Source of the DNA: Riptortus pedestris
Taxonomy: Eukaryota; Arthropoda; Insecta; Hemiptera; Alydidae
Direction of reading: 5' to 3'
Length of the DNA stretch: 64,000 nucleotides
NCBI GenBank assembly: GCA_019009955.1
Contig: CM032233.1
Location: 10,700,001 to 10,764,000, forward strand
A program made the translations under genes and the position numbers. Below are positions 5,189 to 60,280 of the stretch, one piece after another. Each line of letters begins with the position of its first letter. Position 1 is the stretch's first letter. A model generated the notes under the pieces. That model made no database searches. It saw only the letters and a list, made by a program, of their open reading frames with translations, and was not told the origin of the DNA.

Positions 5189-5939
5189 TCCGCACACGCA
5201 GGGCTGCGTAAACTAAGCGAATTTTCCACGTGAAGATTTACAATAGATAAATGTAGATACTGGGTTCACCGCCAAGAATATTAAGTAAATAAATACAAAC
5301 AGTAATATTTCTGTCAATTTTACATTTTAATAACCTCCGCAATGAAAAGCGTCTGAATTATTATCAAACAGGTTAGCCAACCTCTCAGAGCTGAATAGAT
5401 AGATAGATAGAAATATTCTACACCGGAAAGAAAAACAATCACTTAAATATATCTGATTATAACATATTCATTTTATTGAAAACAATTTACTATAGCTAGT
5501 GCAGTAATTTATAATGAATAAGAATAATGCTTATCTCAATCACTCACCAGAATGTATTTGCATATATCTCACAAAGTAAAAGTTCAATGAAAATGGTATT
5601 TAACCTTGGAATATTAATATGACATAAGTAGGAGTGGGGGTTTACTAAAAGCCGAAAACAATAAAATCTTAATATCTCGTTTAATATTCATGATACAAAT
5701 AATGTGTATAGAACAACATTTATAGATCATTCAATTTGCAATAAGATTAATTTTGTACAGTTTTTTGATCCGGCGTATAGAAACGGAGATATTTCGAATT
5801 TTCTAAATTTCCCCTCTAACCCCCCCCCCTTCCTCTGGTATGCTTTCAGCAATTAAGGAACTGGAACTCTCTTTTTATATATGATAAAATATTAAGCTTG
5901 GTAACAATAAAAAAAAATTGTGACTGCTAGAGCATTAAC

Positions 5940-15385: not shown

Positions 15386-15895
15386 CTGTATAAATATATA
15401 TATATATATATATATTTGTATGTTACCGCTCTAGCGGTCGGAATTTTTGCCTTATCGTTACCGAACTTGAAATATAATCGTTTTATACAAAAAGGAAGAT
15501 CAAGTTCGTTAATGGCTGAAATCGGACCAGGGGGAGGTGGGGTTTAGTGTGGAGAATTCCGAAAATTCTTATTATTTCCGTTACTAAGCGTCGAATTGAA
15601 AAATTGTATAGAACCAATCTTATTGCAAATGTAATGTTCTATAAATGTTGTTATATACATTTTTTCACTATCTTAATTATTTACTGAGATATTTGCATTT
15701 TTTAGATTTCAGTCTTCAGTAAAGCTCCACTCCTACCCATCTCATATTTTCAATATTCTATTATGTTATGAAGCACTTTATTTGAAGCTTAAATACCAAA
15801 TATTGTTCTCATTGAACTTTTAAGTTTTCAGATAAATGCAAATACGTGGCACACGTGGGAAATCTGCTTAGTTAACGCAGCCCCAACGTGACGGA
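15223..15895 (-). mobile_element. Helitron-like repeat, family A, complete-looking copy
   Basis: Read on the minus strand it starts TCCGTCACGTTGGGGCTGCG at 15895, carries the family A body and an internal AT tract (15348-15413). It ends with the near-palindrome GATTTCCCGTAAGGGAAATC and TGCTAA at 15223. A 5' TC start and a 3' hairpin next to CTAA fit a Helitron-like element, though the hairpin is only 2 nt from CTAA rather than the usual ~10. About 673 bp, non-coding. Confidence 0.5.
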
Positions 15896-17122: not shown

Positions 17123-18778
17123 TAGTTAAGTTAACCGGCTTCGGCCAGGAATTCATTAGAGGATGAATGATGATTGTAATTTTTTGTAAGGCTTTACTTT
17201 GCACAATATTTTGACATATCTCCATCCCAGTGTTATGGGTTTGTACCCATTGTTGTTCCCCTGTGTTCATCCATTTAAATAATTTATTTATGATAATTAA
17301 ATAAATTCATATTCCTCAGAATAAAATTACATTGCTAAAAGTATAAGCATCAATTATCATGTAAACATAGACCAATATGAGGTTACCAGGGATGCGGCAG
17401 AACTGATAGGACAAAGGAAGTAACACCTCCCTATGCTCAGTAATGCCAACTCATTTAGGATATCAATCCTGTAATACATTAAATTATATTAACAATTCTT
17501 ATTACATTACCTTCACAATACTAAAAATGTTTGTTCAAATAATTTTCACCTTTTAATTAAATCAAACATTAAATACACTTAAGGCCAAACTGGCATTTCT
17601 CATGGATTAATGTTTGGGAGAAGAAAAAGGGGGGGCAGTATACTTCACTTGGTGCAATCTGTTACTGGCCTTAATTAAATAACATAAATTTGAATTATTA
17701 AGGATGGAATATTAACATACATTTGAATTATTAAGGATGGAATATTAACATAGATTTGAATTATTAAGGATGGAATATTAACATAGATTTGAATTATTAA
17801 GGATGGAATATTAACATAGATTTGAATTAATTTATTCAGCTAAGATAGTTCATACTGGAAAAAATTGTTGTGCATATCAATATTTCTACGCTAATTACTC
17901 GCTTCATACATTGTTATACGAAAAAATGTATAAAACAAAAATTACTCAAAATAAACAACTTTTGTTATGTCCATGTTTGCCGAGATACTAATAAGAAATG
18001 AAATACCACATTTTTTTATTTTATGCTTCCCTTATAACCCCCCTCCCTCCTCCTGTTCGTAGCTAGAAATTTTAATATAGCTTATAACAAGGGAGGTTTT
18101 AATACTAAATTACATACTGAGATTCGTTGAGTTCGGTTCAGTCTTTTATGCCCTTTAAAATTCTTGACTCCTGCTTTAGTTTTTGGTGTATATCTCGTTT
18201 ATACTTTGTTATCCGACAAAAGTGAATATGACAAAATTTCCTCTAAATAACAAAATGAACAACTTTTGTTATGTTCATATTTGCCGAAAAACGAATAGAA
18301 AACAAAATACCGCTATTTTTAAATTCAGGCCTCCTTTACAACCCCCACTCCTGCCCGTCCCTAGAAATGTTGGTATGGCTTGCTACAATGAAAGCGTTAG
18401 TGCTAATACACATACCTAGTTTTATTTATTTTGGTTGGGTCTTCTGTCCCAAATAAAATTGTTCATTTCCGCTATAGGTTTTAGCGTATATCTCGTTTAT
18501 AAATCGGTATACGAAATCTGCTAAAATTGTACAGAATCAATCTTATTGAAAATTAAATTTACTATAAATATTGTTATTTACATTTATTCTCTATCTTGAA
18601 TATTAACCGAGATATTGGCATTTTTATAAAATGTGGGCGGGTAACGAACGGGAGTGAGTTTCCCGCCAAAAGTTAGTTCGGCCGTTTCCGTAACTGTTCG
18701 GCACTCCTATAGAGATTTCTCAATTGTATAACTTTACGTGGGAAATTTGTTTAGTTTACGCAGCCCCTGCGTGACGGA
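17122..18778 (-). mobile_element. Helitron-like repeat, family B, with both ends
   Basis: The 3' end on the minus strand (17122-17165) is CTGGCCGAAGCCGG, TTAACTTAA, CTAG, against an AT tract. The 5' end (18735-18778) is TCCGTCACGCAGGGGCTGCG. Inside are the flank shared with 4130-4600, a 33-bp tandem repeat (17689-17828) and ~290-300-bp units (17880-18540). About 1.66 kb with no Rep/helicase, so non-autonomous if real. It abuts the Ty3/gypsy element on its right. The 5' boundary is uncertain, because three copies all have AAAAAG next to the TC. Confidence 0.5.
17689..17828. repeat. 33-bp tandem repeat, about 4.2 copies
   Basis: TTTGAATTATTAAGGATGGA plus AATATTAACATAG repeats with starts at 17689, 17722, 17755, 17788 and 17821, an exact 33-bp period and almost no divergence. 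It is absent from the matching part of the 3-5 kb element, so it expanded recently. Confidence 0.95.
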
Positions 18779-58328: not shown

Positions 58329-58408
58329 TTTTTTTTGAAAAATTCCATCAAATGTCCATTGATCCTATCTAGTAGATGATGAAAATGAGGTTCATTAAAT
58401 ATATATAT
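58328..58408 (-). mobile_element. Helitron-like repeat, family A, 3' part
   Basis: CATCAAATGTCCATTGATCC and GATGATGAAAATGAGGTTCA match 15296-15340. It continues into an AT run and is cut at 58408 by the TIR transposon; the other part resumes at 59854. Confidence 0.6.
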
Positions 58409-59853
58409 GAAGACCACAGGCAAAGAACATTCTAAGTCGATTTTTTTCAAAAATGAGGTTTTTGCGCAATCTAGTAGCTAAGGCCGAGTACTACAACCTA
58501 GTCTACTCATCAAGGGGAAAGAACATTCAGTTTCACTGTTATTAAAGCTGGAAAAAATCATATACAGGGAAATATCATTCTATGTTCAACCAGCTGATTG
58601 ATTTACAGTGGAAGAATATTCTATATTACTATCAGCGGTTCAAGTTATATTACTGCAATGGCTACAACAAAGAGGAAATATGGAAGAATATCAGACGCAA
58701 CGAAGAGAATCCGTGCCATGTCACACATGCCTAGTGATCCGTGTAATTGTAAGCGCTTTAAATGCTTTGAAACAATCAAAGAAAAGGAAAGAGAAGAATT
58801 ATTGAAACAATTTAATCTAATGGCGGACTACAATAAACAAATGGAACATTTAACCGGACTTATTAGTGTTTTACCGATCAAACAGCGTAGGCCTCGAGTG
58901 AATGAAGAGGATTCTACTTCTCTTAAAGAATTCTCTTACGAATACAAGGTAAGGATTTAGACAGATGGGAAAGTCAATGAAATCACTGTCTGTCAAAAAG
59001 CATTCATATCATTGCATGGAATTACAAACCAAACAATCAATACAATTAAAAAATCGTTGAATACCACTGGAAAAGCTCCAGTTGATCAACGAGGCAAACA
59101 CAAAAAACAGAAAACATTCGAAACCAAAAGAAACACTGGATAAGGTCCACGAACATCTATCTTCTTTAAAGGAACGAAAATCGCACTACAGTTTAAAAAA
59201 AAAAACAGTAAAGTGTACCTCTCTGAAGATCTAAACATTAATAAACTTTATAAAATGTATTCTGAATTATATCCAAATAATCCAGTATCATACGAATTCT
59301 ACAGAAATGTGTTCAACACCGAATATAATTTTGCCTTTGGATACCCAGGAAAAGATTCGTGCTCTAAATGTGATGAGTTCAAAGCTAGGAACAAAAAATC
59401 TTGAAATGGGAAATACAGACCAGGAACGTGATGAACTCAAAAACTTGACAACGCAGCACATGTTACATCTTAAGAAAGCACTTATTCTTTTATAATAATA
59501 AATATTTACTTATATTCTTTGACTTTTTTAATGTGTTCTTATGTAAAGTTTATAAATTCCCAATAACCTATGTATGAACATAGAATGTTATTTCCATGTT
59601 TCAACTGACTTAGACTGTTTTTTCACTGTTTTTTATGACATTATGTTTGATTTATTTATTTTTTAATAAATATAACCAAAAATGGAGATTGAACAGTTTT
59701 ATTTCGAATTTAAATCTATTAGATCAGTACAAAAAAAATTTATTGTTCAATAAATATCAATTCTCAATTTTCATATGACGTTTCAAAGACTAATTTTCAA
59801 TTTACTCAAAAGTAAGAAAAAGTGACTTAGAATGTTCTTTGCCTGGAGTCTTC
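58409..59853 (+). mobile_element. TIR DNA transposon of unclear superfamily (1,445 bp)
   Basis: Thirty-base inverted repeats at 58409-58438 and 59824-59853, one mismatch: GAAGACCACAGGCAAAGAAC against GAAGACTCCAGG..., both running on to ATTCTAAGTC. Flanks are AT-rich (ATAT on each side), so the target duplication cannot be sized. It carries the N-terminal half of an arthropod-type cysteine-motif protein (58658-59490). The element sits in the AT tract of a family A repeat. Confidence 0.85.
58658..59490 (+). pseudogene. Transposon-borne protein, N-terminal half (CxKCD family of arthropods)
   Basis: ATG at 58658 (MATTKRKYGRISDATKRIRA) runs 100 codons to a TAG. The same frame continues with DGKVNEITVCQKAFISLHGI and GKAPVDQRGKHKK. 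After a frameshift come VYLSEDLNINKLYKMYSELY, then VSYEFYRNVFNTEYNFAFGY and DSCSKCDEFKAR, then another shift into LTTQHMLHLKKA. The block order 'CRKAF-SLHG, LRGKH, YL-ED-N, Y--F-----FGFP--D-C--CD' is that of large uncharacterised arthropod multicopy proteins. Their C-terminal half, presumed to be a DDE nuclease, is missing. Function unproven. Confidence 0.65.
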
Positions 59854-60280
59854 ATATAATTTTGATACTTAATTGTCTGTTACAGCTCTAGAGGTCGCAA
59901 TTTGTATTTGATCGTAACCAAACTCGATATATAACAGCTTCATACAAAACTAAAGGTCAAGTTCGTTAATGGCTGAAATTGAACCAGTGGGGAGGGGTTT
60001 GAGGGGAATTTCGAAAATTCAAAATATATCCATTATACGTCAGATCGAAAAATTGTGTAGAACCAATATTATTACAAATAAAATGTACTATAAATATTGT
60101 GATATACATTTATTCTTTATCTTCAGTATTAACGGATATATTTTCATTTTTTAGTTTTCAGCCTTCGGTAAACCCCCACACAGAATTATGTCATATTAGC
60201 AATAAGTTGTTATATCATGGACCACTTTATTCCAAGCTTAAATAGCAAATATTGATTCCATTGAACGTTAACTGTGTGAG
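59854..60280 (-). mobile_element. Helitron-like repeat, family A, 5' part
   Basis: TGTTACAGCTCTAGAGGTCG, then AGGTCAAGTTCGTTAATGGC and TAAACCCCCAC match 15420-15760 in the same orientation. No TCCGTCACG terminus follows, so it is truncated. Confidence 0.6.

Follow-up and report, generated by a model that had tools for sequence, protein, structure and literature searches.

A broken gene between inverted repeats in Riptortus pedestris points to DUF7869 proteins as DDD transposases of transposons that most likely belong to Sola

This study asked what kind of gene lies in ruins between inverted repeats at positions 58409-59853 of a 64,000-nucleotide stretch of the Riptortus pedestris genome (the whole stretch is called the window below), and to what kind of element it belonged. 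The locus is a 1445-bp DNA element with terminal inverted repeats (TIRs) of about 37 bp and ATAT on each side (Table 1). Its best explanation is a dead deletion derivative of a cut-and-paste transposon with a DUF7869 transposase, most likely a member of Sola (Sola2), with which it was compared by printed characters.

The inverted arms, 58404-58445 and 59817-59858, are 42 nt long and 90% complementary. At its outer edge each arm takes in 5 bp of AT-rich flanking DNA, the 4-bp duplication among them, which leaves about 37 bp for the TIR proper. The near-perfect repeats reported by the first-pass annotation are borne out, as 28 of the 30 outermost bases pair between the two ends. With a 24-base TIR pattern (up to three mismatches) the two element ends were the sole matches in the window, and there were none in 100 shuffles. 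A 20-bp motif is repeated inside the ends, with six matches in the element against six across the other 62,555 window positions (up to six mismatches); its copy at 58419 falls within the left TIR. At another locus, L028, it occurs five times on the left and three times on the right (up to six mismatches, TIR copies counted). These subterminal motifs are putative transposase binding sites.

Table 1. Features of the element and its flanks, in window coordinates.
Feature	Position	Strand	Basis
Left target duplication ATAT	58405..58408	.	Flank comparison among copies; in AT run
Left TIR, starts GAAGACC	58409..58445	+	Inverted-repeat and pattern search
20-bp subterminal motif, three copies at 58419, 58515, 58567 (0, 5, 5 mismatches)	58419..58586	+	Motif scan
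Junction of 146-bp deletion, apparent start codon gone	58647..58648	.	Alignment to other loci
Remains of broken transposase gene, about residues 1-277 of P0001 minus the start	58658..59480	+	ORFs, alignment to P0001
Junction of ~1065-bp deletion relative to L079	59480..59481	.	Alignment to L079
Inverted copies of the 20-bp motif, three at 59577, 59607, 59824 (5, 4, 0 mismatches)	59577..59843	-	Motif scan
Right TIR	59817..59853	-	Inverted-repeat and pattern search
Right target duplication ATAT	59854..59857	.	Flank comparison among copies

The order of protein blocks noted in the first-pass annotation is present in the window frame, as CQKAF, RGKH, YLSEDLN and SCSKCDEF, but the frame is more damaged than was described then. 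A TAG at 58958-58960 interrupts it, it changes at least three times (near 59115, before 59213 and near 59395), and it has no start. At 58647/58648 the window copy lacks 146 bp that a relative has, the apparent start codon among them; extra bases (128-152) are present at element position 239-241 in 33 of 39 other loci, the remaining six aligning uncleanly there, and the apparent gene start of L028 sits in the stretch that the window copy lost. The larger deletion, measured against L079 at about 1065 bp, took residues from about 278 onward, all three catalytic aspartates included. With start codon, frame and catalytic half gone, the window copy is a dead, non-autonomous deletion derivative that can make no transposase. 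A Pfam scan of its four protein fragments returned weak unrelated matches and no DUF7869, because the part matching this domain has been deleted, and a PDB sequence search with the first fragment likewise gave weak unrelated matches only.

The remaining 255 residues retrieved 24 proteins at E ≤ 0.001, the nearest of which, P0001 (570 aa), shows 80% identity across 95% of the query. Precomputed annotation places Pfam PF25273 (DUF7869) on 19 of the 24; the entry has no function assigned, and its model excludes the N-terminal half, the part present in the window. A profile search from 20 aligned relatives found 242 proteins, and a second, more distant clade, reached from an R. pedestris locus, comprised 232. 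DUF7869 is matched by full-length relatives and by elements of both clades: in direct scans P0013 and the proteins of loci L049, L080, L081 and L082 exceeded the 26-bit cut-off, while P0001, P0005 and P0017 scored just below it (24, 25.4 and 25.9 bits). Organisms named among the matches listed for the first search (best 120 of 242) were Heliothis, Periplaneta, Diabrotica, Nilaparvata and Blattella, and among those listed for the second clade (best 120 of 232) Bacillus rossius, Macrosteles, Anthonomus, Psylliodes, Diatraea, Timema, Homalodisca, Callosobruchus and again Blattella. The named organisms among the matches listed are insects throughout, though for most of the proteins listed no organism is named. 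No relative was confirmed in scans of IMG/VR with P0001 and profile A2, or of prokaryote genomes with profile A2.

The R. pedestris assembly (1.08 Gb, 138 contigs) was then the source of further copies. With the element as query, 116 candidate places came up; the best 40 of these were scored, and of the 40 fetched, the window's own included, 33 have both ends by the TIR test and seven do not. The copies are differing deletion derivatives, 16 of the 40 breaking at 905-908 and resuming at 1059 in window-element positions. L079 (C1:79599800-79602700) joins the right end of the window family to the catalytic half, its left part being missing, and matches P0001 at 60% identity over residues 203-414 and 81% over residues 418-570. 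The DUF7869 model had at least 148 matches genome-wide (best 150 of 390 candidates scored), and none in any of 14 well-known genomes searched as a control; a search with P0001 gave 1152 candidates, of which the best 76 were scored, so that this count is a lower bound. Since there are at least 148 DUF7869 places, many with long open frames, several further element families are likely to be present.

A related family has intact frames. L049, L050 and L051, on three contigs or chromosomes, are 98.6-99.3% identical over 2461-2469 alignment columns. The L049 element measures 2452 bp; ATAT flanks it at either end, and its TIRs, which start GAAGG, are about 30 bp long. Both L049 and L050 hold a single uninterrupted frame of 676 aa, and no other frame in either locus reaches 150 aa; the frame of L051 has one TAG. 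Within the L049 frame (L049:1270-3300) an internal methionine, preceded by 59 residues, agrees better with where the relatives start, and the true product may thus be shorter than 676 aa. In the distant clade, L080 is 2510 bp long, with a TIR starting GAATCAGTG, the duplication AGTT and an open frame of 525 aa, and L082 is 2737 bp long, with a TIR starting GAATTGC, the duplication AAAT and an open frame of 574 aa. At L081:2949-3539, beside a distant-clade DUF7869 element, lies a 196-aa open frame that may be a fragment of a hAT-type transposase. The intact and near-intact relatives in this genome are thus bounded by TIRs and 4-bp duplications, and homologs consistently without such ends, which would have spoken against a transposon origin, were not what was found. 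Their TIRs differ from that of the window element beyond the outermost GAA; at least four TIR types enclose the one protein family, and only this GAA is common to all.

Target duplication length was measured in 38 elements: 33 belong to the window family and five do not. It is 4 bp, exact in 31 of the 38, and the seven elements lacking an exact duplication all belong to the window family. The chance expectation for an exact match is about 0.6% from the base composition of the window, and somewhat higher given the AT-rich flanks. All 31 duplications have the form A..T and 25 of them the form AWWT, the sequences being ATAT (13), AATT (5), AAAT (4), ATTT (3), AGTT (2), ACAT (2), ATCT (1) and AAGT (1). 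Several ATAT cases, the window copy among them, lie in AT runs and alone cannot fix the duplication length, so for the window copy that length rests on other copies. Empty sites were sought by joining the flanks of 16 insertions minus one duplication. For four of the 12 joins searched (L013, L014, L024 and L040) uninterrupted sites were found, at 92-97% across the join, with the best 40 of 13,091 candidates scored. Among the fetched loci, seven of 38 joins match uninterrupted stretches, the window copy's own join at 79-82%. With both ends in 33 of 40 copies, intact relatives bounded by TIRs, and these empty sites, the suggestion that the protein family was borne by a cut-and-paste transposon holds.

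An abundant repeat recurs among the targets. Judged by eye, L014 and L044 (ACAT; window family) and L082 (AAAT; distant clade) inserted within about 2 bp of one point of it, which may be an insertion hot spot. Uninterrupted copies of the repeat lie in the window at 60034-60151, 15560-15709, 5671-5803 and 18523-18672.

The part that the window copy lost is preserved in the relatives, which have an RNase H-like domain with the spacing D-x75-77-D-x41-42-D. The triad, D303, D380 and D423 in P0001 numbering, is conserved in 58, 59 and 59 of 59 alignment rows, respectively, while conservation of E421 is absent in the second clade. AlphaFold2 models of both clades predict the RNase H order, and when the predicted folds were compared with VIA-align, retroviral integrases, Mos1 and Metnase ranked at the top, with IstA also in the best 50. 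hAT and piggyBac were not noticed among these best 50 rows, an absence to which little weight is given. By itself, Foldseek found nothing at E ≤ 0.001, and its hits also include chains of MutS, Argonaute and RNase H. The retroviral integrases, the Mos1 mariner transposase and Metnase resemble the predicted fold, with no PDB sequence match at E ≤ 1 for profile A2. Triad and models together support the earlier proposal that the deleted C-terminal half held the nuclease, a DDE/D-type domain that is presumed to be catalytic.

The first-pass annotation had spoken of a transposon carrying an uncharacterised gene. The gene is indeed enclosed by the TIRs, but it does not look like cargo. Taken together, the triad, the predicted fold, the intact TIR-bounded relatives, the duplications and the empty sites argue that the DUF7869 protein is almost certainly the DDD transposase of its own elements, its activity being presumed from sequence and modelled structure. 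Seen by itself, without its catalytic half, the window copy could be read as a host gene of unknown function that an unrelated transposon had taken up. That this is so is hardly credible, because the protein has a nuclease fold and triad of its own and one protein family lies within four different TIR types; moreover, L049 and L050 hold no frame of 150 aa or more besides that of the DUF7869 protein. As the transposase, the protein would bind the repeated 20-bp subterminal motif with its N-terminal half (Cys motifs and helices) and pair the element ends; its C-terminal RNase H-like D-D-D domain would cut at the GAA...TTC ends, and the cut ends would be joined to a 4-bp A-W-W-T target, which is thereby duplicated. 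In deleted copies the ends and motifs persist; such copies could have been moved in trans, and their number fits this. We infer the chemistry, the end binding and the trans mobilisation from these features.

The superfamily, which the first-pass annotation could not assign from the TIR, can be narrowed by the A..T duplications of 4 bp and the DDD triad, and Sola, specifically Sola2, is the probable home of these elements, a judgement made from printed descriptions rather than from comparison with a Sola transposase sequence. The cited passages give Sola transposons a DDD transposase, 4-bp duplications, TIRs of 11-1124 bp and lengths mostly of 2-9 kb (PMC10741241). The DUF7869 relatives agree in the triad, presumed catalytic, in the 4-bp duplication of 31 of 38 elements, and in size and TIR range (L049, 2452 bp, TIR about 30 bp; L080, 2510 bp; L082, 2737 bp). 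For slime-mould Sola2, AT-rich AWWT duplications are described, e.g., ATAT, AAAT and ATTT (PMC3627910), comparable to the AWWT targets in 25 of the 31 duplications here. However, the slime-mould elements in that description are larger and carry Fanzor1, and for one of them the transposase is 888 aa long, whereas here a protein of about 570-680 aa stands alone. It is possible, though distinctly less probable, that the DUF7869 elements form a separate, unnamed DDD superfamily outside Sola, with duplication length and triad as the sole points of likeness to it. The link to Sola is by description and not by sequence, the TIRs of the four element types agree only in the outermost GAA, and in the openly licensed literature we found no paper naming DUF7869 or PF25273 and none joining GQNKN with transposition. 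On the other side, every printed Sola character that could be compared, as given in the cited passages, is seen in these elements. A separate superfamily would leave the mechanism unchanged and alter only the family, which would then be marked by D-x75-77-D-x41-42-D, GAA ends and A-W-W-T targets, with its transposase listed as an uncharacterized protein in insect gene sets.

Membership in another known superfamily, be it piggyBac, Kolobok, Tc1/mariner, Academ or some other, is very unlikely. The catalytic fold is common to all DDE/D families, and two mariner-type proteins, Mos1 and Metnase, stand near the top of the structural comparison; mariner nevertheless differs from the DUF7869 elements in target duplication and triad spacing. 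According to the cited passages piggyBac and Kolobok are TTAA-specific (PMC9587614) and Tc1/mariner duplicates TA (PMC10741241). These superfamilies are rejected because of the duplications observed: TTAA does not occur among the 31, nor does a 2-bp TA; 4-bp sequences such as AATT, AGTT, ATCT and AAGT were found instead. No other Pfam transposase model matched at E ≤ 1 in eight full-length or near-full-length proteins.

Under the preferred reading, a Sola-like element with a DUF7869 transposase, the window element is of an ordinary kind; what is useful is that the DUF7869 protein can be equated with the DDD transposase of elements with GAA ends and 4-bp A-W-W-T targets. The copies of 98.6-99.3% identity, two with uninterrupted frames, suggest fairly recent movement, which makes these elements suitable for testing a transposase type that has been little studied. 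A mechanism is supplied for a Pfam domain that had no function assigned to it and that is found in proteins labelled 'uncharacterized protein' in insect gene sets, and DUF7869 genes can be masked as transposons rather than counted as host genes.
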